This document shows positions 4,449 to 43,300 of a stretch of 64,000 nt of DNA, piece by piece. Both the position numbers and the translations under genes were made by a program. The stretch comes from Tetrapyrgos nigripes (taxonomy: Eukaryota > Basidiomycota > Agaricomycetes > Agaricales > Campanellaceae). The first letter of the stretch is position 1. Each line of letters starts with the position of its first letter. Below the pieces are notes generated by a model. The model was not told the DNA's origin. It saw only the letters and a list, made by a program, of their open reading frames with translations, and made no database searches. Where the stretch lies: assembly GCA_013368315.1 (NCBI GenBank), contig JAACJM010000011.1, positions 806,001-870,000 on the forward strand. Direction: 5' to 3'.

Positions 4449-4956
4449 ATGTCGAGTAAAGGTAAACGTCAGGTAGTTCTAACAGATCCAGCTTTTGACA
4501 TTAACTTCGAACACTTCAGATGCTGATACCCAGGATTACCCACCCGACTATGCATCGGAAGTTGAATATTCCGTTCCACCGCATGAAGATGGTAAGTAAA
4601 ATCAGATATTCCATACTACTTTGCCTCGAAATATTGACTCGACCATCTCTTCCGATTGGTGCCACACCAACCGCAGGCTCTTCCACTGGTAGCGACAGGA
4701 ACGGAACCCGAAGCAGGTTTACAACCGGCGTTCGCAACGGGATAGGTGCCACTAGCACCGTTAACAATGTGGGAAGAGATCAAAGTAATGCATTTGGTGA
4801 GTCCCCAAGTTTGCTCGTCGTTGGCCTTTACCTATTCTGCTCAAAAAAGGTATTTCTGCTGCGCAGATCATTGCGGCCTTCTCAATACTCATGGCGGCTT
4901 TCTTTATGGCGGTGCAGGGTAATCCTACCCTCTGGAACAACTTCTGGTCAGGTTGA
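4449..4956 (+). CDS. Motif-exon membrane protein, copy 1 (3' part secure, 5' uncertain)
   Basis: The last two exons are clear. Exon 4677-4796 reads GSSTGSDRNG.. and ends in the motif GIGATSTVNNVGRDQSN. It is bounded by introns 4592-4676 and 4797-4849, both phase 1. The last exon, 4850-4956, encodes ISAAQIIAAFSILMAAFFMAV, a membrane segment, then a short tail WNNFWSG and a stop. The preceding exon (ending 4591) is acidic: DADTQDYPPDYASEVEYSVP. Further upstream the frame is uncertain; the ATG at 4449 is in another frame unless a very short intron is present. The motif resembles the N-terminal motif of agaricomycete NACHT proteins and of the 5.4, 35.6, 36.7 and 40.8 kb genes here. Function unknown. 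Confidence 0.5.
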
Positions 4957-5354
4957 GCAGATTTTAGTCTAGCATAGACTCGCAAGGCAATAGACTCCGT
5001 TTTCGAGACTATCTCCGAAATAATCCTAGCTAGAAGAATGCTAAGAAGCTGTTAGCCACGGAGACCATTCGGTCGACCTCAAATCAGAACTTCCTTGGGA
5101 AAAATCTGACAATGAATTGCAGCGCTTCCATGAGCAGTGCCATCGAGGTTGGAATAAGGGCCCGTAGTATCACCTCAATACACACTAACCTCGTTATCAT
5201 GTCACGCCCTGCGGCGTTGGCCCACATTCCCCTCGTAGATTTTTTAGAAAATCTATCACTTCTCATACCCAATGAATAGAAGCGGACCAGACGTCAAGCA
5301 ATTCAATGGGTGGCACTGATCAGCGCTATGTCAAACACTACTTAACGCCTGGGT

Positions 5355-5944
5355 TTGTTCTCGAATACCTTCTTGTCTATCTTGCTGTCTTTTTGCATCA
5401 CTGTTGATTTTGCCAGACCTGTATGCCACCTAAAGAAGGTATGGAAAGTTGCAGGGTTTCAAGTAGTGCTGACTATACAGAACACAACAGAGCACCGCGA
5501 CAGTTGGAAGCCAGAGGAAAACCGCTTCAAGGCTAGAAGCACTCGTATCAGAAACATGGTGACGCCGCACCCAGACGGTAAGTTATTGTTTGCCACTGAC
5601 ATGGGCGTTCTACACCAATTCAATTGATAGGCGGCTCGACTCCTGACCAAACCCCTAAATCACAATTTCGGCAAGAAGCGACGAATCGTAGAGAAGCTCG
5701 CACATCAACTTATAATGAGTTCTTGCCAGGAGCTCATGGGCTCACGATAGGTGGAACCACAATCAATTCAGTGGGAAGGGACCAGCATAACGGTAAGTAA
5801 AATTTCAGACTGACAAGTCTTATGCTCCCATTCTGATACCACGAAGCCCACAATACTCTGCCTATCGCCACATTTCTTGGCGCCATAGTGTTTGCGATTT
5901 ACATGGGGATGCAAATGGGTGGTAATCAATATTGGAAGATATAG
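5355..5944 (+). CDS. Motif-exon membrane protein, copy 2
   Basis: Three exons are readable. The first (about 5355-5577) starts with a signal-like stretch, MFSNTFLSILLSFCITVDFA, followed by a small domain FQVVLTIQNTTEHRDSW. Intron 5578-5630 is phase 1. The second exon (5631-5792) ends in FLPGAHGLTIGGTTINSVG then RDQHN. Phase-1 intron 5793-5846 follows. The last exon (5847-5944) encodes TLPIATFLGAIVFAIYMGM, a membrane segment, and the tail QMGGNQYWKI. The motif exon is flanked by phase-1 introns on both sides, so it is a symmetrical, shuffle-competent module. The paralogue at 35.2-35.8 kb has the same layout. N-terminal start and exon 1 continuity are less sure than the rest. Function unknown; see findings. 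Confidence 0.55.
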
Positions 5945-5987
5945 TACTTAGATCTGACGCGTTCGGGAACCAGACGGTAGAGCTTCC

Positions 5988-6771
5988 ATTACGAGGCCCT
6001 TTAGGCCGAGTTAAAACTTAACTTATGTCGACCCCTCAATTGAGTAGCAAAGGTTCTCACGGGTTCTAACTTTTACACGCCACCACAGCGCTCCGAAGTA
6101 CCCGAACTGATGCTCGATACGTCATAGCTCATCTCTGCCTTGCCGCCCACCAACCACGATGAGTTTCAAGTGTATTTACCTTCCCTCAGCAGCCGTCGCA
6201 AGTCCAACTGCCGCTCTCTGAACCACTACGGGCTCCTCCACCCAACATTCAAGATGTCATTACCGAAGATATTAAGCTCTATCTAATTTTTTTAGTCAAT
6301 TTTACAGTATTACTTACTTATACAATGGGCCTCGTAATTTGCCATGCGAAGCAGTGGCACCTTTCCCCAGTTAACTTATGTCGACCCCCCAATTGAGTAT
6401 CAAACTTTCTCACGGGTTCTAGCTTTTACACGCCACCTCAGCGCTCCGAAGTGCCTGAACACTGCCATTTCAGCTGACACTCAACTGACACGTCATTCTT
6501 GCCTTCCCTCCATCACTGTCAATGCACCAGGTTCAGACGCGTTACTTGGCGTTTACCTTTCCTCAACAGCCGTCAAAAGTCATCAAGAGCCACTCTCTGA
6601 GACTCTGAATCACTATGGATACCTCTAATCCAAGGTCATTTAAAGGCGCTGTTACATTAAAATGGTACAGTATTGGGCTCTATCTAAATAAAAGAATTTT
6701 TTACTGCATACGAAACCGTTTTACTTAAACAGGCCTCGTAATTTGCCATGCGAAGCAGTGGCACCTTTCCC
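5988..6771. repeat. Two adjacent copies of a dispersed repeat (ATTACGAGGCC ... CCTTTCCCCA)
   Basis: Copy 1 spans 5988-6369 and starts ATTACGAGGCC. Copy 2 (6370-6771) lacks the first bases but repeats the block from AACTTATGTCGACC through GCTCCGAAG. Each ends with GCCATGCGAAGCAGTGGCACC then TTTCCCC. The same ends, inverted, bound the insertion at 20903-22140. A short piece also occurs near 34566-34605. No open frame of interest lies in it. I cannot assign it to a transposon class: it has no clear inverted termini. Confidence 0.6.
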
Positions 6772-6883
6772 CAGTAACAGGCAATCATACAACAATCATA
6801 CATAAGCAGGAAATGTTTTCCCTTATCGTTGCCAGCTGGATGCGTGATTTGGCTGTACTTGACTGGCACGTAGCCAGACTCTG

Positions 6884-8560
6884 TTGGTTTGGATGATGAG
6901 TGGAGGCCGCGTTGCAGCTGCTTACTCCATGGATACCAGTCTCTACGAACAAAACAAGTGCAGTGCATCTTTTTCTGCTCGCCTTCTAATCATTTTTTGT
7001 AACATTTTCCCAAAGTTGCATGGACAGAACTGTGCTTTCAACGTCTTGGTCTTCCCAGACTCTCCTTTGCGTTACTTGCTCCCGCAGCAACAGCAGTTAC
7101 GCAGTGCGTCTTCTTGTTTATCTTCTACTTTTCTGTTTCTGCTTCTAATCGGTTTGTAGACTGGCCTTGCGAAAACTCCTTTGGTCTCTGTCACCTCCCA
7201 CTGCGACATTCTGCTTTCTTTACTACCGAGACCCTTGATGCATTCCCGCCAACCTCTTTTCCATCTCACTTTCATAAATGCGTCTTCCACATTCGTCTCC
7301 TTGCCAATGTCTCAAACTGCTTCGTGCTCTTTCTCTCATCCTGCTAATCCCGGCACACCATCTTCTGTGCTGCACCATCTTTTACTACTGCTTTTTGCTG
7401 GGAAGGGAGGCTGCGTATCCTTCCACTCCACAATCTATTCCAAGGAACCGACATCGACGTCTGCTGATATTGGATTGGTGTCGGTTCTGATGGTTCTGAG
7501 TATAGTAAAGGAGAATGAGAATTCAGAAGTAGGAGAGGTTGTCAGCTTGTCAGGTGTATACTCCGGGACTCGGCTATGGTGTCAGTGCCGCTTGTTGTTT
7601 ACGAGGCAGAGGCAGAGGAACCGAAGATTTGGGAGAAAAGACTGAGGAAGATTGACAGAGAGAACGAAGATGATGTAGAAGAAATCCTTGGAGGCTACGA
7701 CTTGGATTTGCATGCATTGGCATCAGATGGCGTTGTAGGAAGCTAAATTATCCACTCTCCCTTGCTACTTTGTCTGATAACTCCAAGAATGCCAGGGCCC
7801 ACGTTTTCGTCTATTCCAAGCAAGAAGGAGATGTTATGGAAGCCTTTGGCCCTGCCTCTACATCAATTTCAACACCGTAGTCTGCAATTCGGCAATCCGT
7901 TCTCCATCTCCTACCCTTCACATGCGTTCACTTTTTATCCCAACCGAATACGCCAGGCTCGACCTCTCTTTACCCTTTCCCAAGCGAAGTCAGCTACAGC
8001 AGACATGCTACTCACGGTACTCCATCTTTGGCCTCTCTACCTTCGTTGTCAAGGATAATCCGGTGTCAACAGTTCCTCACCTACACTTGTTCCCCATCAT
8101 CGTCCAGAATTGGGCCGAGGTCGATGGACAATAGCGGCACAAGGCTACCAGGGTCATATAGAAGAGCCACTGTCACCTTCTCGGACTTCTTCTGGCGTTG
8201 ACCTCGATGGGATAGAGAGGAGAGTGCAGATGAGAATACGGGCTTTTCTGCTACCAACAGACATGTCTTGGCCTTCATCATTGATGGCGGTAGTTCACTA
8301 GATGTTGGCTATGCGAGCATCGGGATTGGCGTCGCTGGTTGTTCTTGAGGCAGAGGTTGACCTGAAGAAGTTATGGAGGAAGACGAAGAGCAAATCGAGG
8401 GTTTGGATGGATAGGAATCCGGCTTGAGAGGCATTGGGATTGGGCTGAGAGGAAGAGGAATATGATTATGAATGGCCCTGGAGAGCAGATGCTCTACCTG
8501 ATCTGGCAAGACCGCTTTCTCCCATATGTTTACCAGTGCTTTCTTTGCTTACCTGCTACA
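6884..8560 (+). repeat. Dispersed repeat family R1, copy 1, with a short conserved open frame
   Basis: One of five divergent copies in the window, all in this orientation. Shared landmarks are TGCATCTTTTTCTGCTCGCC near the start, the peptide block around 7620-7740, and the 3' block GAGGCAGAGGTTGACCTGAAG (8349 on) running to CTGGCAAGACCGC near 8510. In this copy a 56-codon frame (7576-7746) reads MVSVPLVVYEAEAEEPKIWEK .. DDVEEILGGYDLDLHALA. The same acidic peptide recurs in copies 3, 4 and 5 but in broken frames. The rest has stops in all frames. It could be a degenerate multi-copy gene or transposon cargo; I do not recognise the protein. Confidence 0.55.
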
Positions 8561-8819
8561 TCCCAGTATTTCTTTTCCCTCTGGTATCAGTAACTTCCTC
8601 AGGAACACATAGACAGTACTCTGTCCCGCATACGCTTACATAATATTTCATGTCAATCACGGCGAGATCAGGGCTTTCCTCGACTTTCTGCTTAGATATC
8701 TGAGTTCTGAATACATTATCTATTTGGATGTATATCTAGGCTACAAATATGTTTCATTTTGGTATGTCTATTTGGTCACCTATTTGTCGAGCAGATATTT
8801 TGGTCTTGTCGGCATGCCT

Positions 8820-8860
8820 AATCAGTCGTTCATCAAGTTCATCATGGTGAACGACTGATT
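8820..8860. repeat. Perfect 13-bp inverted repeat (hairpin)
   Basis: AATCAGTCGTTCA at 8820-8832 is repeated inverted at 8848-8860, with a 15-base loop. It lies about 120 bp upstream of the readable start of the NLR pseudogene, in a stretch (8560-8980) where I see no gene. Confidence 0.6.
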
Positions 8861-8981
8861 TCATGTGCCAACCTCTGGAGCAGTGACAGAGAAGTAAACA
8901 TTACATTGACAATGTCAGCGGTGTCCCTTCTCACTCAACCATCACTACTACCCTCAGGGGCAGATATCCTGACGAACAAAC

Positions 8982-10306
8982 CTTTTCTCTGGAGCTCGTT
9001 CCCTGCAGTTTAGCCATACAGACTTCAACACAGTGCATGGGAATCAGAGCACCACTATCCATAACCGTACTGCACCGCCAGTGGCAGAGAGTGGTGAGCA
9101 GATAGACCTTCTATCATAGCTGGCAGTACTGACCCACTTAACCTTCGGAATTACTTACGTTGCTCAGGCCTAGAGTGTCTCTACGAAGTTATATCAGAAG
9201 TTGGTGCTTTACATGACGAAGATGCTCGCTTCCCTCCTCCAAAATGTCATCCAGATACACGAAAAGATTCTGGCCGAGCTTACTATGTTGGCCAGCCAAT
9301 TTGGACCAAACTTCTCCCTGCCACTTTTGAACACTTTCTGACTCAGACTTTGTCAGAGCAGTCCACGCATCACGACGAAGACCCTTGGTCTTCGAATGCG
9401 ATTTTCTGGCTGTACGGTCCAGCAGGAGTCGGAAAATCCACAATTGCCCGGACTTTATGCGATCGTCTACATCAGAAAAATTTGGCAGCTAGTTTTTTCT
9501 TTTCCAGGAACAGTCCCACCAGAGACAATCTGAAATATCTCTTTCTCACTATTGCATGCTGTTTGGCAACGTATTCTAACGACTCGAGATTGCGATCAGC
9601 AATAGACAAAGCAGTGAAAAAGCGGCCTGGAGTCCTCAAATCATCCATTGTGACACAGTTTCACGAGCTTATTGTCAATCCTTTGTGCTTCTTCCCAGAG
9701 AAAACAGTGGTTACCCAAGCTCGTCGTAATTGATGGGCTGGATGAATGCACAGGTGCTGACGCACAGGGCCTGGTTCTGGAAACGATCACGGGGTCAGCG
9801 GGGGGCATGGTCACATCGATTCCTCTTCGCTTTCTCATTATCAGCAGGCCGGAACATGCAATTCGGGAAGTTTTCAATCGACCACCACTCCTTTCCTGCG
9901 CAAACCGAACAGTCCTTGATGACAGTGCTGATACAGCCAGAGATATCGAACTCTATCTTCGCAATGGTTTCCAAGATATTCGCAGGGTGAACAGCGACAT
10001 ATCATTTCCCTCTGAATGGCCAGAAGCAGACGTCCTTAACGAGCTTGTCATGAGAGCCTCAGGTCAATTCATTTATGCTTCAACACTGCTCAAATATGTT
10101 GGGGAAAGGAGTTCATACCCTCCCAACCACCTCCAAGTCGTATTTAACTTACCTATTGGCAATGCTGGTCCATTCGCTGATCTGGATATCCTATACCACG
10201 AGATCTTGGCTTCAAGCCCCCAAGGGAGTGTGGTTGTTCAAGTTTTGGCTCTCGTCCTTTTGACCAGCAGCAGATCTACTTTGGAGATACTGGATGAAGT
10301 CTTTTC
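8982..10306 (+). pseudogene. NACHT-type NLR-like gene, 5' part, interrupted by a copia element
   Basis: Exon 1 (8982-9093) reads LFSGARSLQFSHTDFNTVHG then NQSTTIHN, the N-terminal motif of agaricomycete NLR-like proteins. A CTT stands where ATG is expected. A 75-bp phase-1 intron (9094-9168) leads to GLECLYEVISEVGALHDEDA and RFPPPKCHPDTRK. The nucleotide-binding domain follows: Walker A GPAGVGKST at about 9417-9443 and Walker B LVVIDGLDEC at about 9717-9747, with an SRPE sensor-like motif after it. A one-base frameshift lies between them, near 9690-9730. The open frame continues through HANFxYASTLLKYV-like sequence (GQFIYASTLLKYVGERSSYP) to LEILDEVFS, where the LTR begins at 10307. The gene resumes at 16987. 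Such proteins are STAND-type cytosolic sensors; this copy is dead (lost start, frameshift, later stops, insertion). Confidence 0.85.
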
Positions 10307-10546
10307 TGTTAGAAAAGAGTATCGGTAAGTAAAGATACTCAGGTTCACACAATGTAGTGGGAACAACTGAGGTGTGTTGGGTGATGTTGTACGGTATATG
10401 TGAAGTATCATACGTACAGATCAAATACATAGTCAAATAGACGGATCACAAATATGGAGTAAGGTGGTGAAGATAGGGAAAAGAAATAGGAGAATGATAT
10501 AAATGGAAATTACTTATTATGGATGTAGGGACTCGTTTCTTCAACA
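10307..10546 (-). repeat. Copia 3' LTR
   Basis: 240 bp, TGTTAG..CAACA as read on the + strand. It is near-identical to 16742-16981. Confidence 0.93.
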
Positions 10547-10668
10547 CTCCCCCTGAGTGCCTACGTCTCACCCTATTGTGGTTGTGGTTCATTTCTTCAG
10601 CACTTCCAAATGCCTATGTTTCAACCCACAGTCAATCCCAATTCCTCCACGAACTTTTCCAATGCCGG

Positions 10669-13600
10669 TCAAGATAATGACTTTGTCATGAGATCAGCAA
10701 TGTTGTCTTTGGTAGGGACATAACGAAACTCCAACTCTTTGGCCCTGACCGCATCTTGAATCCATGCCCATGAAGTATCAAAATGCTTGGTGCGTCCGTG
10801 TTTCGTAGTCGCCTCTGTTAACGATATGGAACTGGTGTTGTCAACGAATATAGTGAAAGGATACGCCTTTTCCATCCCAACTCCCTTGAGATATTTTGCC
10901 ATCCACTCCGCTTGCTTTCCTGCATTCACCATTGATAAATATTCCGCCTCTGTTGTAGATAATGCGATCACCCATTGTTTCGACAATGCCCATGATACCG
11001 GTCCCCCTGTGACCATGAATACATATCCCATTGTTGACTTTCAAGTTGCGAGCCCATTCTCCTCTTTCACATCTGCATGCGACGCGTCTGTGTAACCAAC
11101 TGGTTTGAGCTTGTCCTCTGACTCCCCCTGACGACGGCGGTAGGTTAGTTGATAATTGGCTGTGGTTTTGAGATACGCAAGTAGATGCATCCCTGCTGCC
11201 CAATGGACTGGTCTTGGGTCACTTGCATATCGTTGAAGTAGGGATACCGAGAAGGATATGTCGGGTCGTGTACCTTGGCTGATGTGGTTTAGAGCTCCAA
11301 TAAGGCTGTAGTAATTCTTGTCAACCATGAAAAGTTTGTTGTTTACTGGGATAGGATCTGGTTGGCTATCGACGAACTCAATTCCGGGGGAAAGAGGAGT
11401 GTATTTGGGTGCACAGTCTTGCATTCCAAAATGTTCCAGTGTCTTCTTGATAAGGGGTCATTGATGTATGGATATGGCTCCAGATTCCTTGTCCTTTCTA
11501 ACTGTCATCCCCAATATCACATCCAGCTTCCCATAGTCCCTAAACTCGAACCCCTCTGCAATATCCTTCCTTGCTTTCTCTCCATCTTCTTTAGTTGATG
11601 AAACCCCAGTAACGTCGTCAGTGTAGGTCACGGTGAGGGTGTATCCAGTCTCGGTCTGACAGTATCGTATGCATGGGTCTGCTGGGTTTGTTCTATACCC
11701 GAGTTTGCGGTAGTATTTGTCGAGCATGTGATACCAATTATTACCTGCGTCCATAGTCCCATATATGTTGATATTCATCAACAATACTGTCTCCTCTCCG
11801 TCTCACAAGCTGTATCAGCTCTCAAACCCTTCAGGCAACTTGAGGTAATTCACTCCCTGCAGCTTCGCATTTAGATACGCTCCCATGAAGTCGCCTGACC
11901 ACAAGTTGAGCCCCTCGTATGCAGCGATGGTGATAGCAAACCGTTCTGATTCGTAGCGCGTGACAATAGACCAAGTATCATCATAGTGTATCCCCTTCAC
12001 CTGGTCGTATCCCCTAACCACCAATCTAGCACGTCTCTCTGTGATCTTCTCCTCACCATTGTACTGTAATGCGTACACCCATCGCATGGTGATAGCTTTC
12101 ACATCCTTTGGTCGTGGGACAGGAGTGAAAGCCTAGCGGGAGTCTAATTTCACCAGCTCCTTCTCCATCGGGGGTATCCATAGGTCTGGTCGGGTTATGG
12201 CTTCGGTATATGACGTTGGAACCCATGTATTGTCGGGTTCGATCACTGGTACTTCAGTATTGTTTGCAGCTGGTGCATCGCCATCAAATTCAGGTAACAA
12301 CTCATGTTCCTCGTCATTCGCCCACTGTTCTCCTCTTTCATTTGCTTCTATTTCCCTCTCCTTGTATTCCTTGGACTGGATGAGTTGTGGGATTTTGTGC
12401 ATGCGACGATGCTCGTGTTGGTTGCGTACCCCAAATTTCTTGTTGGGTACGGCGGGTACATTTCAGTTTGGGAGCATTTGGGATTGGAATCAGAATTGCT
12501 GGTATCGCTCGGTGCAGAGATTGTGGGCTAGATGTGAATTGATCGGGGTCTCAGTTGTAGTCGGCTGTGGTCTGATCGGGGGTCGAGTCAGCAATTTGAT
12601 TGGGTGTTGATTTGACGTTGACGTCATTGTAGGTTTTCGGGGTTAGGAATTTCAAATCCTCATCCTCCCCCTTAACCTCGGAAACCCAATGCCCCTTTGA
12701 CTTCTCCCATACTACGTCGCTCGTGTGGTATACCGCATTCGAGGTCCACTCCTTCACTACATAGACTTTCTGACCTGCATACCCCACCATCTGCGCCTTG
12801 AAACTTCTCGCATCCAACTTTTTCCTTCCACTCTTCTCAGGGATATGGACAAATCTGATGGATCCAAACGGGACGAGATGTGACACATTCTGACGTTGGC
12901 CAGTCCAAAGCTCTTCTGGTATGTTGCCATTAGCATTAGGGAATAGATTTTGAACATATGCAACAGACACTGTTGCATGGCCCCACCACGAAGATGGTAA
13001 TCCTGAGTCGAATAGCACTGCTCTGGTTCCTTCAAGAAGAACTCCGATACCATGCTCAGCGACCCCGTTTGATGGTGAAGTGTATGGTGCTGTGAATTCA
13101 TGTTCAATACCATTTGTGGTCCACTCTCGCATAAGTGCTGACCTCCATTCTGGTGCGTTATCTGTCCTAATCTGCTTCAACTTCTTTCCCGTCTGCACCT
13201 CAGCCTTTGTCTTTAACATATCAAGGAGAGCGATGATGGTCTCAGCTGTACAATTCTTCATCAATTCCACCAACTTCTTCGCCGTTCCCGCATCTACTCC
13301 AACAAGAGCATACGAGTTTCTGCCTACGGAAGCGACTTGTGCTGGGCCCCATACATCTAGGTACCATCGGTAATTGGCCTCAGTGACAATTTTGGTGCTG
13401 GTGGCATGGTGTTGCTTGTTGGTGTGAGCTCTTTTGCAGTCCTCGCACCATCCCATTATGTGTCTGACTCCCTTCCCCAGGTCCAGCATACCATCAAGTT
13501 TCTTCACAGCCATTTCAATTCTTTCCGGCATGATGTGTCCTGCGGCATGATGGATGTATCTCACATCTTTGGGGAGGCATTCTGTTGTCATCGCACCCAT

Positions 13601-14553
13601 ATTGTCCCTCGCCATCTCAACATCTAGCGTGTATATGCCCCTGTTCAGTCTGGCTTCAAATGCCTCAGTCCCGTCCTTCGATAACCATATCATCCTCCCT
13701 CCTTTAATTGTTGCTGTGTACCCCAGCCTATCGAGTACACCAGTGGATAATAGGTTTGATGAGACGTTTGGAGCATGGAATGCATTTTGTAATACGAGGT
13801 ATCTTGGACGACCGTTTATCGTGGTTCTCAATCGTACATCCCCCCTCCCAATGATCTCGAAACTCGTTCCTCTCTTTGACCCGTTGCCTTCCTCAGTGTG
13901 TGTTTCGTATGTGGTGAAGGCTGATTGGTCTTGGAAAAAATGATGGGTGGCTCCCGAATCAGCGATGAGCATGATCTTCGTGCCACTTCCGACGGCACTG
14001 TTGAATGTGTTTGTGGCAAGAGCGAGAATGGGGATAGTGTTGTCAATGGTAGTGGTATTTGCAGATGGAGTATTAGACAGTAGCAGTACGTCTTTCTTCC
14101 CTTTCCACCATGCTGGATATTGACCTTGTTTTCCTCCACCTTCCCTAAAGCAGTTGTTGATTGTGTGTCCGACTCGCTTACACTTCAGGTTCGCACATAC
14201 AATATTTGGGTTCGTTGGACCTTTCCTCTGTGTTTGTGTTTGCATCACACTCATTTTCTCGGTCAACTCCTTTACTTGTGCCTGCAGTGCTGCAACCTTA
14301 TCCATCCCTGGTCTTCCTTCACTGTTGTCCCCTCCCATCAATCTAACGTGCTCTTGGAGACGCTCGGCTGCAGTTCCAATTTCTAGACCCCTCTCGGACA
14401 GCATTGCGCCAACTGTAGGGATCCATTCTGGGGTACGTGGAAATGAGTCAAGGAACATGGTAAGGAATTGGGCATTGTTGTAGGTTGATCCTGTGTCAGT
14501 AGCTCCTTTTCGAAGTAGTTTATACTCCGAGGCATATCTGTCTTCACCAGTGA
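10669..14553 (-). pseudogene. pol: Copia gag-pol, C-terminal gag to RNase H
   Basis: The largest open frame (14578-12551; its first residues lie in the mariner end) carries the rest of gag and a CX4CX4HX4C knuckle (CANLKCKRVGHTINNC). It then has the protease IADSGATHHF, a zinc-binding HHCC region ending WCEDCKRAH, and an integrase core with YLDVWGP, IRTDNAPEW and NGVAEHG. Downstream the frame breaks repeatedly. Reverse transcriptase pieces are at 12102-11815 (ARLVVRGYDQVKGIHYDDTW) and 11784-11458, with YTDDVTG as the active-site loop. The tail of pol, 11424-10669, holds YTDASHADV and LSTTEAEYLSM of RNase H. Stops or frameshifts separate these parts, so no functional polyprotein is encoded. 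Confidence 0.9.
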
Positions 14554-14555
14554 TA

Positions 14556-16173
14556 CAGTGGCCAAAAAAATTGTCCACATGTTTGGCACTTTTGGAAAGA
14601 TTGCTGATTTAACAGTTATTGAGCAGAAATCTCAAAACATGGCTGGTGATAGCAAGAAAGCCTTTGATTAGAGCTACAATAATCTGTCTGTTTGGTCTTA
14701 TTTGGCCAAATATCTGTTGAGTTATGATTGATTTAAAATTGTATGTCATTTGGACAATTTTTTGAGTTGCCACTTCAAAATCATTATTGCAATAACCTGA
14801 TGGGTTATACATGATGTCATGGGTGGAGCTGTACAGTAATGTAATGTATACACCACAATGATGTCATAGCTGCCAGCTAGAGCATACATAGCAACATACA
14901 GATGCTCTACAGCCTCTATGAAAATCATGGAGGTTCCTCCGAGTCATATCAGCTCAGAAAGACAACCTCTACTCTCTTCTCCAGACTGCCCCTCCCTCTA
15001 TCAAAATTTCAGCTCGGACTGAAGCATGAAAGCAGAGTGTTGCTTTTATAGGTAGAGAGACATGTTCTGACAAAGGAAACCATTGGATATGGCACTTTAG
15101 AAAAATGGCCACCTCTGGATCAACTCCAATATTATTAATGCTTTCCAGAATTTTGTTACTTAAAATGGTCATATAGTGTTTGCAATCTATCTTCCCCTTC
15201 ATTTGGACCATTTTTACTGCTTACTGCTGCCCCATACCCTACCCCATCATGTCATTTTCTCTCCCAAATGTCATCATTTCTGTCACATCTTGCTGTGCCA
15301 TGAATTTATCTCTCTTTTCTCACACATGCTGGGGCATATTTGCCCTTGATTTTGGTCTTATCTGAGAAAATAACCCACTTCTAGCCTTCTACAGCCCGGT
15401 CTTTTTACATCTGTGTAAACTTCAAGTGAGCCTTGCTGCAAGTCACTGTAAGTTTACACTTGTTCTGTGTTTTGGAGATGGCCACAAGATGTTTTAAGGA
15501 ATGTTTTGGCTGTTATAGGCTGGGACAGGTTGTCCAAGAAGAGCCTTGATGTTTTGGGCCACTTGTGTAGCAATCTGGCTTTACCAGAATGGATTCTTTT
15601 CCAATCTAACCTCTTCACAAGTAGTAGAGAGCCTCCTAGGACACCCTGCTGTATTGTTCTCATTGTCTGTATTTGTCTTTTAAGCCACAAAAGCAACTCT
15701 TGGCTTCCATACTCCAGTCTGAGCTGCAATTTTTGCAGATGGAGAGGCAGTTAGGAGGAGAGAGTAGAGATTGTCTTTCTGAGCTGATATGAGGGACCTC
15801 CATGATTTTCATAGAGGCTGTAGAGCATCTGTATGTTGCTATGTATGCTCCAGCTGGCAGCTATGACATCATTGTGGTGTATACATTACATTACTGTACA
15901 GCTCCACCCAGGACATCATGTATAACACATCAGGTTATTGCAATAATGATTTTGAAGTGGCAACTCAAAAAATTGTCCAAATGACATACAATTTTAAATC
16001 AATCATAACTCAACAGATATTTGGCCAAATAAGACCAAACAGACAGATTATTGTAGCTCTAATCAAAGGCTTTCTTGCTACCACCAGCTGTGTTTTGAGA
16101 TTTCTGCTCAATAGCTCTTAAATCAGCAATCTTACCAAAAGTGCCAAACATGTGGACAATTTTTTGGCCACTG
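14556..16173 (-). mobile_element. Tc1/mariner-like element with long inverted ends, inserted in copia gag
   Basis: The ends read CAGTGGCCAAAAAA-TTGTCC and are inverted relative to each other, flanked by TA (14554-14555 and 16174-16175). The terminal inverted repeats are unusually long, about 450-500 bp. The right arm, read on the minus strand, shows a degenerate transposase N-terminus: KIAAQTGVWKPRV, GCPRRLS, TQVAQNIKALLGQPV, all like the paired helix-turn-helix of this superfamily. A middle remnant (GEKMTWWGRVWG, NNIGVDPEVAIF) fits the catalytic domain. The left arm repeats the N-terminal sequence in inverted orientation, so the 3' part of the gene has been replaced. Many stops; not functional. 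Confidence 0.75.
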
Positions 16174-16556
16174 TATGTCCCCATGTATCTACAGGTACGC
16201 AGAGCTTCGTCCTTTCTCTGGCAAGCAAGGTGGCTGACTGAGACAAATTGCTTCTCTAGGAACTCCCAAAGATCACTTGACATCTTGTTAGATGGGAATC
16301 CAAGTGAGTCGGGGTTCTTGATGTTGTCCCATATGGTAAGGTATGCAACAGATTCACGAATCTCGTATTCAAGGAAGTTTGGAATGCGACTGCTGATAGC
16401 AGTGGCAGAAATGGCGCTCTCTGGGTCGGTTTGGGTTACAGTCTCGGTCTCACCCTGTGCAGTGACAGCTTCAGTCGTATTCGCTGGGTCTTTCAGTATG
16501 GTAATCTTCCCCTCCCAGTATAGATGTAGTCCCTTCAACTTCCCTCGGCGAAGCAT
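16130..16556 (-). pseudogene. gag: Copia gag, N-terminal part
   Basis: The minus-strand frame reads MLRRGKLKGLHLYWEGKITI and continues to LACQRKDEALRTCRYMG, a retrotransposon gag of UBN2/copia type. It stops making sense at 16173, where the mariner element begins; the last residues of the open frame are element sequence. The rest of gag continues at 14553 with TGEDRYASEYKLLRK. The join is one base out of frame by my reading. Confidence 0.8.
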
Positions 16557-16741
16557 TGACTCTTTCCACGATATGTAGTTCTCCCCGTTGAATTTGAGGT
16601 CGTCAGGAAGCTCGTAGACATGTTGTATGAGGGTATGGGATGCAATGGAATATGTTTCGTCATTTGTTGAGTTGCTCTTGAGTCAGTCCGTTATGTGATT
16701 TGGTTTTTCTGTGCACAGTTTAGGGCGCGGGGCCCATAACC

Positions 16742-16981
16742 TGTTAGAAAAGAGTATCAGTAAGTAAAGATACTCAGGTTCACACAACGTAGTGGGAACA
16801 ACTGAGGTGTGTTGGGTGATGTCGTACAGTATATGTGAAGTATCATATGTACGGATCAAATACATAGTCAAATAGATGGATCACAAATATGGAGTAAGGT
16901 GGTGAAGATAGGGAAAAGAAATAGGAGAATGATATAAATGGAAATTACTTATTATGGATGTAGGGACTCGTTTCTTCAACA
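16742..16981 (-). repeat. Copia 5' LTR
   Basis: 240 bp, the second copy of the LTR at 10307-10546, with seven transitions between them and no indels. It is followed by the right TSD TTTTC (16982-16986). Confidence 0.93.
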
Positions 16982-17230: not shown

Positions 17231-17262
17231 TGTGCCAACAGTTTAGCCGGATTTAAATCCAC

Positions 17263-17726: not shown

Positions 17727-19066
17727 TCAAGCAGCGACAGGCTGCGACACAGCGTCCGGACTGTGAAACTTGTCAGCAGTGCCAACGACGTCAGATCCAG
17801 GCTCCTTGGCAACCTCAGAAACTGACTTTGCCTTGTCAGGTCCTTTTTCTTGGGCGGAATCAACGGCATCTGGCTTTGAAATGGCACCCCTGTCGACATC
17901 TGTCCCCTCCTTGTACTCGTCGAAATTGAGGCGCTTGAGAACCTCATCCGGTGTATAGCCGTGCTTAGCTGGACCCACAGAATTACTGGAATAAAATGGT
18001 TAGTTCAATAACCACAATGTATAGCGGTGGAAGACTCACGAAGCTGACAGATACAATTCATGCATAAATTGATGATACCTTTTCGTGTTCGTATCCTTGG
18101 TTTGCTGAAGATCTCGGAAGAAGTGCCACTTATCCTCAAGACCCTCTGGTGGAAACTTGCTGGCTGATTTCGCACTGTTGTGGTCTGCAAGTATTGAGTA
18201 GATCTGGGATCTTCTAAATGATATGCTTAGTATAAATCAATGACGCACGTACATAGCATGAGGCCAGAACGACCATAGCCTTCATCATCTCTGGTTTTCC
18301 CTTGACTGTGGATGGGAAGAGCTCTTTCTTCCTGCTGCTAACAATCTTGCTGTACTTGCCCTGGCCAAACCACGCAGAGGATATGAACTTGATGATAGTG
18401 GGGTTGGTAAACAATGATGCAACCGAGTAGAAGTAATTGCCGTCCTATGGAACAAGTTAGATCACAGAATCATAGAGAGGTATAAAACACACCTCTCCTA
18501 GGGGATATATATAGTCCGTATCACACGTGAGCTGTTGAGCTTTCAAAAAAGAACTTGAGGAGTTGTCAAGGCTGAAAGCAGCCAAGACCATGGGTACCAC
18601 ATCATTCTTGAGTTTCGTTCAGAAAATAGTAACTCGCTGTGCAATCTGAAGAGATATTAGCACTGTATCATTAAAAAAAATAAGAAATCTGTCACTTACA
18701 TAGTTGATAAATGGCTCTCTGTACATCTTTTTATCCCCTCGCTCAAGCCTGCCACCTATATCCAGCTCTCCTCCGTATCCCAGCTCCTCAGCGGCCTCTA
18801 TCAGGGCTGACCAAACAATATTATCAAGACCCTTAGTAGTAAGGGGACAGAAGTCCACCTCAGGGTCCTCCTCATCCTCCTCAATGAATGCATCGCTGAC
18901 TATCATAACCAAGGCTATTTGAATTGCACGCTTACCAACACTTTTAATAGCTGTATTTTGAGAAGTAAGGGACATCTTGTAGGTGCGAGTGTTGGCTGTG
19001 TACGGGTTGAGTACGAGTTCTGTCTGAGGAATATAGGCGGGTTCATCCTCATCTGATGAGACAGTG
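17727..19066 (-). pseudogene. DUF6532-like protein, 5'-truncated and with a nonsense codon
   Basis: Minus-strand exons read in order: about 19066-18712 (AYIPQTELVLNPYTANTRTY .. RGDKKMYREPFINY), 18658-18494, 18447-18256 (LFTNPTIIKFISSAWFGQGK .. KPEMMKAMVVLASCY), 18188-18041, and 17993-17727 (TPDEVLKRLNFDEY then a Lys/Asp-rich tail to AA-stop). Exon ends match those of the 57.7-60.35 kb gene (..EPFINY versus ..KPFVHY), and both end with a YHxxMHxLY block. I place it in the DUF6532 family from memory. Exon 2 begins AQRVTIF followed by TGA where the family frame continues TKLKNDVVP; a CGA to TGA change at a CpG would explain it. The 5' end is joined at 19067 to MYND-gene sequence. Confidence 0.6.
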
Positions 19067-20462
19067 TGGAATGCAAACCAATAGTTTCCAAAGCCTTGAA
19101 CCAAAGGCTTTGCAGGTGTGCTAGATCACTCGTAGCTGAGCCTGATGGTGTAAATGGTGTATTGTGAACATCGAAGAATAGCGGTACTCCCCAAAGCTGA
19201 GATAGGAGAAATCGGTTTTCGAGGAATTCGACAATAACGATAGGTCCTTGTTTGCAGGTCATTTCCACGAAGAATAAGTAGGATTGCATGGAACAGTGTG
19301 TTGTTTCTGGCCGATATGAGAGGAGCTTTCAGAATAGGATCATGAACCAGTATATCGCTTGACGAGAGAGCATGATTAATCGAAGTTTTCGAGAATAACT
19401 GGATGTATGAGTGAAAACACCCAAAGCGGATTCTAGATGCTTATAGTCGAGATTGCTGACGAGAGGAGATTCAGCACATGTAATGAGGCCTTGTAATGCC
19501 ATGGAAGCAAAGTCAGAGTGGGTTTCTTCAAGTGCGTCCTGAAAGGTTCCAATGGGACTCACAATGAGAGCCTCGGGAGAGATTGGTAATTTGTAGCTGC
19601 AAAGCTGAATGTTCTTAACCACCTCCTGGATTATCCTGACCCAGTTATGGAAGATATCCAACTCCGCAATCAAGACGTATAGGAATGCGATCAGTGGCAT
19701 GGCTTCGGGACTGAGCACATCATCAGGGATTCGTTTGGGGAGTGTAACTGCGTGGAGGAGTTTCAAGACAGTGGTAAGAAACGAATCCTGGAATTCCTGG
19801 CCTTGCTGATCATAGATGGGAGATTTGAGATATCCATCCACCAGGAAAACCAACCACGTCCAGATTTGTGGCCAATGTCTCTGAAGGGATCCACGCATCT
19901 TGGTATCACTGATACTGTTCCCTCCAAGTCCAACAGCTCCATTAGCAATACCAAGCAAAGAGTGTGCAGCCAAATGATGAGATTGGAGAGGTGGGCCTGT
20001 GGGAGATACAGATGCTGTTGGCTTGGACAGAAGAAACGACATAAAAATGGGCATAGTGCTCCAGAAGATATTAGAAGGGTGCATAGACTTGTCTCCCAAG
20101 TCTTCGAGAGCCTTTGCAGATCCACTTCTTGCACTGGTTTTGAGAGACTGTAGACACTTCTGAGCAAGTATCCGATGGCATTATGAAGAAGACTGACCTC
20201 CAAGGACATGATAAACTGTTCAAGACATGGAATGTCTAGGTGGCTATACACTTGAAGCTTCTGCCAATCAAGTGCAAGCATTCTAAGTCAAATCTGTCAT
20301 CACATTCCCTTGATCTCGTTGTCATCGTCCACAATGATGACAAGACCTGTTTTGCCAACGAGAAGACCAGCTTACTTTCCTTGAAACCACCAAATCTACT
20401 GCACCACTCTTCAAATCAATGAGCTTGTGTTCGCTGTGTTCCAAATATCTTCTAAGCTTTAT
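19067..20462 (-). pseudogene. MYND-family gene, truncated duplicate (5' two thirds)
   Basis: Closely matches 51154-52527 of the MYND gene on the same strand, from the 5' flank and MLALDWQKLQVYSHLDIP through LGDKSMHPSNIFW .. LGVFTHTSSYSRKLRLIML to LWFKALETIG. Homology stops abruptly at 19067 on one side and near 20462 on the other. The C-terminal MYND finger is missing. Across the 19067 junction the MYND frame does not run into the DUF6532-like frame, so no fusion protein is expected. Unlike the 50-52 kb copy it keeps TTG (not TAG) at the TVLKLLHAV site and has no 14-bp deletion, so each copy preserves parts the other lost. Confidence 0.8.
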
Positions 20463-20482
20463 CATTGCCTCTACCATTGACA

Positions 20483-20845: not shown

Positions 20846-20902
20846 GAATTGAGCCAGCTTTATCATTACATAAAAATGAAGAAAATTAATGGGATGTAGT
20901 AC

Positions 20903-22140: not shown

Positions 22141-23799
22141 GAGTCAACTTTGAAATAACGTTAGCTAGCTGCATCAACCACAAAACAACTGTCAAAGTGA
22201 GGACTACGTTGGGCAGCAATTCTGATGAGCCAGTCTCATAGATGATGGTGCTATTATTGTATGTATTGGGGGTGGAACCATGATGACTTCAGGTTTGGGT
22301 TGTGGTTCTTTGTAACCTATCAACATTATAGTAGCAAGACTTCCAGCAACACCTCCTGTGCATGCTGTGGTTACTGTTGTGTAAGCTTTCCAATCATCAG
22401 TAGCACCTGTAGAAGAGATAGAGAATGTAGAGTAAGCAGAAATACTAGGGAAACTTAGAAGGTTGAGTACTCCTCACAGTATGATAATTCCCTACCATGA
22501 AAGTTATTGTCGAGTCTTGTATGTCATTGTCATGGGCTCCAGAGAAGACGGTATGAGTTTGACTCGGAACCTCAACAGGGACATGTCCTGATTCAGATGC
22601 TTGAGAACCAGGTTGGGCTTGGGCTTGTGCCTGTGCCTCATGATGATCGGGGTATGACTGTGAACTTGTTTGTGGACTGCCAGTGGCTGTATGACTGGGG
22701 TCTTGGAAATTAACGTCCGAGTCATCGTACGCATATGTACCATTCTCTGGAGGAACACCTGTAGCCACTGATGTGCCGTGGTCAAATGTGCCCCCGTCTT
22801 GAGCAGAAGATGCATCACGGGGCGTACGTGATATGTCAGAGTGGGGGATCCAAGGTGTGCCTGGGAAGGGACTTGGAACTGGATGAAGCCAAGGCGATTG
22901 ACCCGGCCCCGGTGTTGCCATCAGAGGAATGAAGGGCATTTGAGCCACCCACGGTGATCCAGGAGGAGGAAGCCAACGCGATTGATTCACCCATGGTGTT
23001 TCCATTGGAGGAATGAAAGGCATTTGAGCCCCCCACAGTGGTCCTGGAGGATGAAGCCAACATGATTGATTCGCCCACGATGTTTCCATCGGAGGAATGA
23101 AAGGCGTTTGAGCCCACCACAGAAGTCCCATCTGAGGAGGAATGCCAAAGGTGTGGTGGGTACCCAAGGACTAGAATGACCCAAGGGCTGTATCCAGCGT
23201 CTGAGAACAGGATTCTGGCCAACATTCTTGGGCAGGGAGGGTAGGGGATGTCAATGTTTAGGGTCATCATTGCCAATCAGTCCAGGTAAAGAAGGCTGCA
23301 GACTAGATGGCACAAGATTAAAATGAGGTTGGAAGTCATGGTCATCAAACATAGTTCTGCCAGGGACAGGAGGACCACTTGGAGGAACTCGAGTAGGCAG
23401 CTGGACTGGTATAGTGGGAGCATAGTGACTCTGAGCATGTGGTGTCTTTGTCTGAAGTGATGGAATCGACGTTTGAGAAAAATTTGTACATGTTAAAGGG
23501 GGAATAGGTGTACATGTATTCTCATTTGAGCTGGACAGCCTGGTGGCATTCCAGACAAGGATAGCGCTGCCAATCCACAGTGTTCATGCTCCCAGTCTTG
23601 CGCTCTTGGAACAAAATCTGGTTCTACAGGTAGTGATATACTGAAACTCAGCACCACACTCTGCCCCAGGGAAATGTGCTGAGGGTACAGTATATGAGGA
23701 AGAGGAGGGATAAAAGTGGGTAAATCACAATGTGCACTGCCTGGAGGTACCCCTCCAGAAATACTTCCAGTCCATATAATTATAAGGGGAGGTAGTCAC

Positions 23800-34825: not shown

Positions 34826-35805
34826 CGCCATGTCGAGAGTAAAGATAAACCTCAGCCGGTTCTAACAGATCCAGACTTTGACACTAGCTTTGAACACTGC
34901 CGGCTCCGCGTATAAGCTTGCAGCGGGCGCAGGTAGTCTCTCCTAAACAGACACCGTCTCTTTCGATCGTGACTCCAGGTGCTTCTCGGAGAAAGACCGG
35001 GCATGGGGTATATCTCATAGTACGCTCAGAAGCATCAAGGAAGTTGATGGTGGCACTGATATGTCACACAAGGTTCAAGCAGCTGTTACATGAATTACAC
35101 GTGCACTCATACAGCTGGAATGCTGTATACACTGCATGAGGGTACTACTTAAAGCCTAGCTTTCTTCTATAATAGGTCGTTGTCCAACTTGTTGTTCTTG
35201 TCCTTTGCCGTGGACTTTGCCAGACCTGTATGTCACCTACAGGTAACTTATGGGAAAATGAAATGTTTGAAGTAGTTCTGACTCTACAAAACATAACAGA
35301 CCCCGTCAAAACTGCAGAGAGATTTCCAAAGGAACGGAGTAGGAAAAATATGATGGCACGGCGCCCTGGTGGCAAGTACTTCCGCCAATACGAATCCTTT
35401 GGACTAACAGCTAACTCAGATGGCAATCTACACCACTGACAGGCTTTGCTCACAATGCATCTGACGCTACCGCTGCACGCACTCAAGCTTCAGGGTCTCG
35501 GCAAGAGTTGAATAATCCTGAAGAGACTCGCACCTCAACTCATAATGAACTTTTCTCGAGAGCTCACGGGTTCACGATTGACGGATCCACAATCAACACG
35601 GTGGCAGGGAACCAGCGTAATGGTAAGTGAAATCGTCGATGAGTCTATTGTAATACACTCATGTGTTCTGCTTTGGACGCCACGTTCGAAAGAACATAAT
35701 AATAATATGTTGCCCGTCGCCGTATTGCTCGCAGCCATCATAATGTTGGCTCTTTACATGTTGATACAAATGGGTGGTAATCAATCTTGGAAAATGTTCA
35801 CATAG
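34826..35805 (+). CDS. Motif-exon membrane protein, copy 3 (5' part degenerate)
   Basis: The 5' 90 bp match 4439-4530, and 35205-35805 matches 5390-5944, so this looks like a shortened duplicate of the 4.3-5.9 kb pair. A signal-like LFLSFAVDFARPVCHL (about 35193 on) is followed, in another frame, by FEVVLTLQNITDPVKTAERF. The exon 35443-35622 reads FAHNASDATAARTQASGS and ends FSRAHGFTIDGSTINTVAG then NQRN. A phase-1 intron 35623-35692 leads to the last exon, HNNNMLPVAVLLAAIIMLAL YMLIQMGG-type sequence ending NQSWKMFT. The upstream donor would be GC rather than GT (GCAAGT). The last two exons are well supported; the 5' gene model is not. Confidence 0.5.
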
Positions 35806-36487: not shown

Positions 36488-38153
36488 TTATACAGTGCGA
36501 GTCGGCGTGAGACTGGAGGTGTTTCCGACTGCAAGTACTTGTATGAGCAACACCACGACAATAGCGACGATTACGCCACCAGTGCCTACGGCCAATACGC
36601 TGAGTCCCTTCCGATCACCGTTGTCTATCAGTGTTCAATGAATATGAATGAATGACCTTTTTACTAGTAATCTACTCACTATTCTCTTGCTTTTCTGCGA
36701 CAACGTTGAATGTACAACTGGTTATGGTTACGCCATTTGCTCCACGAAACATGTCAGTTGAAATTGAATGAGCAGGGTTTCTAACCATGCCGATGGTCGC
36801 GTAAGTTGCTTCGACAGCGGTCGCATTTGCTTCTCGGACTAAAGTGAGGATACCGAATGGATCACGCGCTGGTGGTGTAGGACTGTGCCTATGGTTGGCG
36901 TTTTCCGTAGTAGCGTCAAGTCTGTCATGATCATCATCTGATAATGGCTGATTTGACCCTGTGTAGTCATTATTAGGAGTGTCTGTCCGAGTCCATGCAA
37001 GGCGTCTCCGAACTGGAAAAGCTGAAAGTTGCATTTTCAGCAAACAGCAAGCGTCACACTGGCGTCTGATTCACTCACAGCGCCTAGTCCAAAAGCAGTG
37101 TCCATGGTACAGAGTCGCATTGAAGTTTGATAGAGTGAGATTAAAATTTAGGGAGTTTTCTGAGTTCCACGACATTGGTTGACTTCCTGTTCGGCATGAA
37201 TTGTATAAGAATGTGGAGAATAATCGACCTTGCAGCCAAGCCAAGAAGAGTGCTATCAAAACTCACTGTTCTCTGGAAAAGCTGTTTGCCAAAAGTTGTT
37301 GACCTCCTTGACCAGCCTTTCCTTCGTGTAGATTGCCGAGCTATAATCAGTTTCGATTATGACATTAATTTCCATTCCTCCACTAGTTGGAAAGGTAACA
37401 GTCCGTACTAGTTGCTTCCTGATATGTTCCAGAGAATCCCATCACGGTGAAAACGCGCTGGGTTATGGTACTGATATTCAATGAGTGATCACGTTTAGTT
37501 TGAATACTTACAGTACGGTGGCCATAGTATCCAACTGTTATATAGATTTCCTGCTATGAGGGAGATTTGGCAATCGCTGATCTCAAAATTTGTCGACGAT
37601 AGATCATTGAGAAGGAAGGCTACATGAGCTTTAGCGCGAGAAACGGCAGCTGGGGCTCTGGGGAGTAGGTATCTTGTCTTGTCCCAAGGGGAGCAGATAC
37701 CGGCGCCTGAGTGAAAGTGCCAGCGTCACGATAAATACCAAGTACACTAGTGCGACTTACTATCCTCTGACTCATCAGCAAGGTATATCCAATTATATGC
37801 GTTTCCTTCGACAATTGTTATAGTGTGTCCTGATAGGATAAGGCTTGACCCATTAGTTTGGAACAGCGAGGGATTGTTCCTATGCAAGTCTTGAAGAGCG
37901 CGACGAATGGTGATGGAGGCATAGATCCTGAAGGCCTTCATGTATGCTGCAGTTTGTGAAATGAGATATTTGTAGCGAAGAAATTTGATTACTACTTACT
38001 GTCCTCTTTCTCCGGATCATATGACCAACTTGAATGGCCTGTCTGTGAGAGATATCGGTACAACTCCTCTAATTCTCGAGCTATTTCCTCGAAGCCTTTG
38101 CTAATCGAGTCAGTCCATGACCTTGAAAGATGCTCGTTCTGCTTACTGGGCAT
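36488..38153 (-). CDS. Seven-exon motif-repeat membrane protein
   Basis: Exons on the minus strand: 38153-38000, 37946-37761, 37706-37512, 37457-37267, 37228-37079, 37021-36680 and 36624-36488. Nearly all introns are phase 1. Exon 1 is helical (FEEIARELEELYRYL). Exons 2 and 3 each end near the motif: SGHTITIVEGNAYNWI and FEISDCQISLIAGNLYNSW. Exon 4 has a small domain MEINVIIETDYSSAIYTKER LVKEVNNFW. Exon 6 is acidic/Pro-rich and ends MFRGANGVTITSCTFNVVAE. Exon 7 encodes VLAVGTGGVIVAIVVVLLIQ, a membrane segment, and a short tail. About 450 residues. The exon 3/4 join is off by one base, or needs a different splice site that leaves a TGA; so either my model or the gene has a fault there. The 36488-35806 gap to copy 3 holds no gene I can see. 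Confidence 0.6.
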
Positions 38154-38199
38154 AAGTTAACGTTAAAAAATCGTGTGAAACGTATTTGTAACGAGCGTT

Positions 38200-40260: not shown

Positions 40261-40375
40261 TCATCGAAATACATACGATTTTAAGTACTGCACATCTTAC
40301 ATAGGAGTTCCTCAATATACACATCGCCATTAGAAGGACTTGAGCCAGCTTTTATCATTAAAAATTGAAGAAAAA

Positions 40376-43300
40376 TTAACGGAATGTAGTACGAGTCAAC
40401 TTTGAAAAGACGTTAGCTAACTGCATCAACCGCAAAACAACCGTCAAAGTGAGGACTGCGTTGGGCAGTGATTCCGACGAGTCGGTCTCATAAATGATGG
40501 TGCTATTATTGTAGTAGTACGCATTGGGGGGAGGAACCATGACGACTTCAGGTTTGGGTTGTGGTTCTTTGTAGCCTATCAATGTCATAGTAGCAAGACT
40601 TCCAGCGACACCTCCTGCGCATGCCGTGGTTACTGTTGTGTAAGCTTTCCAATCATCGGTAGCGCCTGTAATGGGAATGGAGAATGTAGAGTGAGCAGAG
40701 ATGCTAGGGAAACTTAGAAGGTTGAGTACTCCTCACCGTGGTTATTATTATTAACAGTATGATAATCCCCTACCACGAAAGTTATAGTCGAGTCTTGTAT
40801 ATCGTTATCATGGGCTCCAGAAAAGACGGTATGAGTTTGACTCGGAACCTCAACAGGGACATGTCCCGATTCAGATGCTTGAGAATCGGGTTGGGCTTGG
40901 GCTTGTGCCTGTGCCTCATGATGATCGGGGTATGACTGTGAGCTTGTTTGTGGACCGCCGGAGGCTGTATGACTGGGGTCTTGGAAATTAACATCCGAGT
41001 CGTCGTACGCGTATGTACCATTCTCTGGAGGAACACCTGTAGCCGCTGATGCGCCGTGGTCAAATGTGCCCCCGTCTTGAGCAGAAGATGCATCACGGGG
41101 CGTACGTGGTATGTCAGAGTGGGGGATCCAAGGTGTGCCCTGGAAGAGACTTGGAACCGGATGAAGCCAAGGCGATTGACCCGGCTCCGGTGTTGCCATC
41201 GGAGGAATGAAGGGCGTTGTTGCCATCGGAGGAATGAAAGGCGTTTGAGCCGCCCACGGTGGTCCCGGAGGAGGAGGAAGCCAACGCGATTGATTCGCCC
41301 ACGGTGTTTCCATCGGAGGAATGAAAGGCGTTTGAGCCGCCCACGGTGGTCCCGGAGGATGAAGCCAACGCGATTGATTCGCCCACGGTGTTTCCATCGG
41401 AGGAATGAAAGGCGTTTGAGCCCACCACGGAAGTCCCGTCCAAGGAGGAATGCCAGGTCCTTGCCGGTCTGCCAAAGGTGTGGTGGGTACCCAAGGACTA
41501 GAATGACCCCAGGGCTGTATCCGGCGTCCGAGAACAGGATTCTGGCCAACATTCTCGGGCAGGGAGGGTAGGGGATGTCGATGTTTAGAGTCGTCATTGT
41601 CAATCAGTCCGGGTAAAGGAGGCTGCAGACTAGATGGCACAAGATTAAAATGAGGTTGGAGGTCATGGTCATCAAACATAGTTCTGCCAGGGACAGGAGG
41701 ACCACTCGGAGGAACTCCAGTAGGCAGCTGGACTGGTATAGTGGGAGCATAGTGACTCTGAGCATGCGGTATCTTTGTCTGAAGCGATGGGATCGACGTT
41801 CGAGACGGATTTGTACACGTTAAAGGGGGAATAGGTGTACATGTATTCTCCATTTGAGCTGGACAGCCTGGTGGCATTCCAGACAAGGACAGCGCTGTCA
41901 ATCCACGGTGTTCGTGCTCCCAGTCTTGGGCTCTTGGAACAAAATCTGGTTCTACAGGTAGTGGTATACTGAAATTCGGCACCGCATTCTGCCCCGGCGA
42001 AATGTGCTGAGGGTACGGTATATGAGGAAGAGGAGGGATAAAAGTGGGTAAATCACGAGGTGCACCGCCTGGAGGTACCCCTCCAGAAATACTTCCAGTC
42101 CCCATTGCGTCCATATAACTATAAGGGAAGGTAGTCACTGGATCGACGAAATTGGGTCGGTCGACATGTACGTCTGCGACAGGACGATATCCTGTGGGGC
42201 CCATCGACCATGGAGTAGGCTGCATGAATGTCATTGGGTTTGGATTTGGTGGAGCCTGAGTATACTGAGGCCATGTTGACGGTGGTAGTGAGAGATTCTC
42301 ACTCTCATACGAAGGAATGAAGTCATTTGGATTTGCTCGGGTGTAATGAGGACCACTTGGTATACTGGGCATTCCGCCATGCATATCGGGCATCGCACAC
42401 GTGTACGGTAAAAGCATCGCAGGATCAGAAGCTGAGTAGAACGACTGGGTGTTGTCCTCTATTCGCCACGGATCTGAGGACATGGAGAAGTAGTGAGGGT
42501 GCCTTAACGGCAATGGCAGACTTGCATACGGAGGAATGAAGAATCTCTGCGCGTTGGAAGGATGATACAGGTTATGAGCGTGCATTACAGAGGATGTACA
42601 TGTACCTCCCATGTAGCATCCACAAGCATGAGGTGGATCCGGTGGAAAGGCCAGAGCACTGGGATACGAGTAGCACTGAGCTTGTGCATGAGATACTGAC
42701 GGATATGGATATAGATGTGGATGTGGAGGAGCGAAAACCCTTGACATGGTGCTGTTGCTGAAACCGTGATCGTGACCGTGCCAACCAGTATGAGCCTGTC
42801 CTCGGAGAAACGGATTTGTATGATGATAGGGAGGAATGAAGGATTTGTAGGTGTGAGCGTTGAGAGAGTCAATATCGTAGGGTGTCTCTCCCATTCTACA
42901 AGCATAGGGACCCAAAGCCGGCGCAGAAGTCGGAAAGTACTGAGCTGCCAGTGGAGCCTCGAGTATCGACGAATATGAGTAGGATGAAGGAATGGAAGCA
43001 TCCCGTATGTTGAAGGGATCACTGGGGATTCTGCTCGCAGATATGCCTCTCACTCCACGAGTACCTGGTATAGAGGCAGTGTATGGTAGTACATTAGACG
43101 CGTCCCGAATCGCACTGAAGGCGCAATGGGCGTCAACTGCCTGAGATAGTGGGATATGTGGAGGGATGTAGAAGTCTTGGTTGTTGGAAGGACCACCCTC
43201 CAGTGTAGAAGATGTCGTAGAAGACATGAAACTCTGTGTATTGTACTGAGTCGATGGCCGTGGAGACGAGTTTGTATGGGGAGAAACGAACGAGTTTTCG

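Follow-up and report, generated by a model that had tools for sequence, protein, structure and literature searches.

Do short proteins encoded in one 64,000-nucleotide stretch of the genome of Tetrapyrgos nigripes, an agaricomycete of the order Agaricales, share a motif with NOD-like receptors (NLRs), and could they be the membrane-side partners of such receptors? The stretch, hereafter the window, is 806001-870000 of contig C11 in the 98.5 Mb assembly, the one genome from which all of our data come, and an earlier note had placed a short motif at six sites within it, here called A to F; we put its length at about 28 residues. We find that the same motif is present on NLRs and on separate predicted proteins, namely B, D and A (and F, by the wider of two profiles only). 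We read these proteins and the relatives of F as candidate membrane-side partners of agaricomycete NLRs, joined to them through a homotypic motif, and put the probability of this reading at roughly one half. The six sites, together with an additional one absent from the earlier note (F-copy), are the following.

Gene A, 4449-4956, plus strand: exons 4449-4461, 4520-4591, 4677-4796 and 4850-4956; motif 4754-4789; predicted protein of 103 amino acids with a hydrophobic tail.
Gene B, 5556-5944, plus strand: exons 5556-5577, 5631-5792 and 5847-5944; motif 5720-5791; predicted protein of 93 amino acids with a hydrophobic tail.
Gene C, 8979-10328, plus strand: a broken NLR; motif 8979-9056; donor following 9093; NACHT-type exon starting at about 9168; further open piece at 9672-10328.
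F-copy, 22207-22546, minus strand: motif 22478-22546; tail exon 22207-22404, with the tail frame broken.
Gene D, 35350-35805, plus strand: exons 35350-35371, 35443-35622 and 35693-35805; motif 35550-35615; predicted protein of 104 amino acids with a hydrophobic tail.
Site E, 36488-36752, minus strand: motif-like stretch 36705-36752; strongly hydrophobic last exon 36488-36624; only the last exons were modelled.
Gene F, 40379-43951, minus strand: NCBI D9758_006992, 1146 amino acids; blocks 43808-43951, 40735-43743 and 40379-40663; motif 40750-40824.

The window was scanned in six frames with two profiles, neither of which contained a row from the window itself. The wide profile was made from 15 NLR N-terminal motif rows, each with a P-loop behind the motif; since several of these rows had originally been found with B and D as queries, the scan was redone with a strict profile of eight NLR motif rows obtained only through a search with the NACHT family and the chain of searches that followed from it. 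With the wide profile, D ranked first in the window (35.6 bits), followed by B (31.2 bits), F-copy (16.5 bits), F (16.3 bits) and A (14.7 bits, the match covering the second half of the motif only), and all five exceeded the maximum of 11.1 bits reached in 60 dinucleotide shuffles of the window, which contained no match of 12 bits or more against five in the window. C came sixth (9.8 bits) and, as two shuffle matches reach the same score, is borderline; E ranked tenth (3.9 bits, E-value 5.6). The strict profile gave 26.2 bits for both B and D and 13.0 bits for A, against 11.4 bits for the best shuffle. Because both profiles score B, D and A higher than any shuffle, we regard these three as firm, whereas the match of F, which depends on the motif subtype of ATPases from contigs C116 and C64, was obtained against the wide profile only. 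C and E, judged by sequence alone, are not above chance. Thus, of the six sites, the motif stands at B, D and A with both profiles and at F with one, while C is borderline at best and E lies at chance level; the question the earlier note had posed against itself, whether the motif is any better than shuffled sequence, is answered favourably for the first three and unfavourably for C and E.

The link to NLRs emerges when the rest of the genome is considered. A search with the whole of B returned 14 places, five of which belong to the window genes B, D and A; each of the nine elsewhere is a motif exon lying 5' of a P-loop ATPase (9/9), with individually modest E-values of 0.007-0.031. The P-loop genes with the motif ahead of them lie on contigs C116, C64 and C83, and a search with D likewise recovered B and two F-family genes first, and then motif exons of P-loop NLRs. 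When Pfam was applied to one of the motif-bearing ATPases, nSTAND1 and AAA were barely over their cut-offs, and NB-ARC and NACHT were under theirs. Among 90 scored NACHT matches (out of 231 candidates in the genome), in 35 the motif is matched immediately 5' of the domain on the same strand: in 19 of them it lies within 900 bases, with an opposite-strand control of 0/90, and in the other 16 the match is to a variant of the motif named after contig C177; the downstream control was 0/90 in both scans. Taken with the recovery of B, D and A by profiles free of window rows, these counts bear out, in this genome, the suggestion that the motif is linked to NLR N-termini. In an alignment of 22 rows, spaced hydrophobic residues and a G[DN] pair were seen by eye in most rows, not all. 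In one region, C116:49000-163000, at least nine ATPase genes with the motif lie clustered.

The same survey brings in a rival explanation, in which the motif is a general module for self-assembly or scaffolding, a sticky piece spread by phase-1 exon shuffling, with no dedicated signal from NLR to membrane. Among 44 motif rows, a donor was found behind the motif by a strict donor criterion in 31, and it is in phase 1 in all of them, 26 having a P-loop downstream and five lacking one, so that the same donor recurs across architectures. Five rows (L066, L068, L069, L070 and L071) belong to proteins in which the motif lies close to the N-terminus; the sequence behind it is rich in Asn/Ser/Thr and in several of them also in Tyr/Pro, with no evident membrane tail and no P-loop in the stretch examined. 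The existence of such low-complexity carriers means that the motif is not confined to NLRs and proteins with membrane tails, and F itself has a long Pro/Tyr-rich region. A module of general use sits less easily with the 35 of 90 NACHT matches that have the motif directly upstream and with the fact that every outside match of B is an NLR exon, and on balance we think this explanation unlikely.

Turning to the small genes themselves, the models of A, B and D give open frames in which every intron (three in A, two each in B and D) is in phase 1. The phase-1 intron that the earlier note saw behind each motif is therefore recovered in these three models; in C, E and F it can be read off the sequence, and in F the junction is that of the NCBI model. 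Some details of the models are less regular: the last acceptor of A is AAAAAG, a weak or unusual one, the first donor of D is GC, and B may extend further upstream at its 5' end. Judged by hydropathy alone, A, B, D and E each have a single hydrophobic stretch near the C-terminus, the best 19-residue Kyte-Doolittle means (with the number of residues that follow) being 2.21 (13) in A, 1.84 (10) in B, 2.78 (12) in D and 2.95 (17) in E. The corresponding value in F is 1.60 (8), which makes its 'membrane segment' weak. A membrane segment as the next exon, proposed for five genes, is thus compatible with the hydropathy of A, B, D and E (1.84-2.95) but doubtful in F. As a sequence-level observation, the presence of the NLR motif on putative membrane-tail proteins is well supported in the case of B, D and A; support is weaker in F and lacking in E.

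Could A, B, D and E instead be remnants or chance frames, with the F family an unrelated low-complexity family whose motif has converged on that of the NLRs? A, B and D are unannotated, F is lost from the strict profile, and broken copies and transposons are found in the neighbourhood, all of which would fit such an account. It is harder to reconcile with the comparison of B and D, which have a common three-exon phase-1 layout and have both kept motif and tail. Their exons are 64-71% identical and their introns 54-56% identical with more gap columns, and 38 of 85 differences fall at third codon positions (one-sided p 0.019). Motif matches scoring between 26 and 36 bits, and the annotation of F by NCBI with the same junction, likewise argue for real genes, and we consider the remnant account improbable.

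Gene F combines a long Pro/Tyr-rich region with a last exon that has a predicted C-terminal helix, and the NCBI model joins the motif exon to the same last exon that we read here. When the tail module of F was searched without the motif, seven places were found in the genome, one on each of contigs C254, C94 and C175 and four on C11 (two of them in the window), and in six of the seven the motif lies just upstream. In the family layout the motif comes first, then a stretch that is in part Gly-rich, and finally a C-terminal helix, which is conserved. Tandem repeats of 42 bases occur in the Pro-rich region of F (41146-41446) and of F-copy (22868-23138). In the copy on C175 (C175:78000-80520; L085, L086) a HET domain (PF06985, E 2.9e-14) lies ahead of the motif and the F-type tail. 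HET domains have been reported to be sufficient for cell death in fungi (PMC10197012), and to be absent from basidiomycete NLRs and present in that group in other architectures (PMC9815663). The C175 relative resembles fungal HET-domain proteins (PMC10197012, PMC4986451) in possessing PF06985 and differs from them in that it runs on into the motif and F tail, its HET part being interrupted by a frame break.

This copy bears on a further alternative, namely that the membrane-tail proteins are anchors or decoys, which hold NLRs at the membrane or soak up their motifs and so dampen signalling instead of executing a response. B, D and A contain hardly anything besides motif and tail and have no effector domain that is known, as might be expected of such proteins. 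The HET-motif-tail gene, though nothing direct, hints that one relative at least may execute a response, and an anchoring or decoy function seems to us distinctly improbable.

In the candidate-partner reading, a homotypic motif is common to NLR-type ATPases, at their N-terminus, and to predicted proteins in which it stands just ahead of a C-terminal hydrophobic stretch. Upon detection of a trigger the NLR would oligomerise, and its clustered motifs would then nucleate the motif on the membrane-tail proteins; since the predicted topology of B, D and A is that of tail-anchored proteins, their motif would stay in the cytosol. The nucleated proteins would gather at a membrane and set off a response there, most likely in the form of regulated cell death. 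An amyloid-like contact is inferred here from published work on agaricomycete NLR motifs of similar appearance.

Several known systems offer partial parallels. As in the NWD2/HET-S, FNT1/HELLF and PNT1/HELLP pairs, a motif from the N-terminus of an NLR recurs on a separate, presumptively membrane-acting protein; in those pairs the motif stands at the C-terminus, behind the killing domain, whereas here the motif precedes a hydrophobic tail (PMC7889193, PMC10197012, PMC12881547). In the bacterial BASS/BELL systems, too, an NLR has its motif in common with a small protein that contains a hydrophobic helix, but BELL lies ahead of the motif and the genes adjoin (PMC7889193). Another likeness is with the NLR05/08/22/29/44 group, a set of 689 amyloid-like motif sequences at agaricomycete NLR N-termini, which shares with our motif the host class, the position at the extreme N-terminus of NLRs, NACHT and others, an abundance of dozens per strain and, as far as most of our rows go, hydrophobic residues at intervals with a G[DN] pair (PMC9815663); the resemblance is one of position and pattern, compared by description only. 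Table 1 of that survey gives this group no matches in neighbouring proteins and none in the C-termini of established effectors, and candidate partners with BaMLKL or HeLo, sought genome-wide, are named in Moniliophthora roreri, Fibularhizoctonia and Sphaerobolus stellatus (PMC9815663). Amyloid-like motifs are reported there on hundreds of agaricomycete NLRs, the survey having begun from established effector domains; proteins made of motif and membrane tail, as seen here, are not described in the parts of it on which we draw (PMC9815663). We found no published agaricomycete partners of this type in the literature, which is no proof of their absence. A, B and D would have been easily overlooked, because they are small spliced genes missing from the protein database searched and because the survey started from established effectors. 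If they are partners, two small genes and the corresponding peptides would allow agaricomycete NLR signalling to be tested directly. For the NLR05/08/22/29/44 group the survey gave only a few candidate pairs, in single species (PMC9815663).

A broader proposal, that N-terminal motifs seed both minimal tail-anchored proteins and HET-motif-membrane proteins as a wide output route of agaricomycete NLRs, is tentative and rather doubtful as it stands. If true, it would give an effector side to the largest agaricomycete amyloid-like NLR motif group, without a HeLo-like killing domain. No known executing domain was found by Pfam in A, B, D, F or the pieces of E, HET being confined to the C175 relative; at curated cut-offs these sequences gave no match at all, and no HeLo-type domain among them. 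A genome search with PF14479 (HeLo) returned no match, but none was obtained in control genomes either, so that absence is not established. A structure search with the motif alignment found no related solved structure (best E 1.9), genome searches with E and with A returned only E and A themselves, and a protein database search with the F tail region found only F's own NCBI protein.

A number of observations weigh against our candidate-partner reading. Under the strict profile E (8.3 bits) and C (8.2 bits) both fall below the best shuffle, and F and F-copy are not among the 14 matches listed. When 1346 arbitrary phase-1 tails, each 28-48 residues long, were taken from the window, 90 reached a Kyte-Doolittle mean of 1.6 and 47 reached 1.84, and more than one acceptor is possible in each gene, so that one hydrophobic tail alone is unimpressive. 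Between B and D the stretches 5' of the genes share 63% identity, a value little short of that of the exons, which makes the coding signal modest. A, B and D have no annotated protein, a protein database search with B found no homologue, and one with an alignment of A, B, D and E found none at E <= 10 (537 candidates). In the F family, the C254 and C94 copies are nearly identical, the seventh, degenerate copy has no motif in the stretch examined, the C175 gene has a frame break inside its HET part, and an AlphaFold model of the tail module from five sequences had a mean pLDDT (predicted local distance difference test) of 52.6, the sole part predicted with confidence being a helix at residues 65-94 of the last exon. 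On the NLR side, many motif rows are close paralogues, and three rows of the C177 variant score low against the wide profile (8.2 and 9.3 bits for two from contig C177, 6.5 bits for one from C55), which makes the 16 NACHT cases that depend on this variant softer. Finally, the window is without an intact NLR, so the local sensor-partner pair is not intact, and the evidence comes from a single genome.

With 3.9 bits against the wide profile and its strict score under the shuffle maximum, E was rejected as a firm member of the motif group; since it has a phase-1 junction and its last exon is strongly hydrophobic, we retain it as a copy that may have diverged. Another two motif-like stretches, 5' of E (37590-37820, minus strand), picked by eye, were dropped at 2.1 and 0.8 bits.

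Gene C is the sole NLR noticed in the window, the motif scan of C11 having covered the window only. The exon behind its motif does lead into a NACHT-type domain, as the earlier note had claimed (NPHP3_N, PF24883, E 2e-14). The motif frame has a stop upstream and no ATG within, the frame breaks near 9.7 kb, and a long terminal repeat (LTR) retrotransposon has inserted into the gene. In this state C could not act as a local sensor, and we rejected it as an intact one.

LTR retrotransposon in gene C, 10306-16981: LTR pair 10306-10546 and 16741-16981, 97% alike; 5-base target duplication TTTTC.

Near the left-centre of this element lies a 375-base inverted repeat (14565-14939 and 15791-16165). Elsewhere in the window, a further segmental duplication (19066-20099 and 51154-52355, 92-97% alike) involves a gene near a frame, 50257-50883, named by eye as a MYND-like zinc finger.

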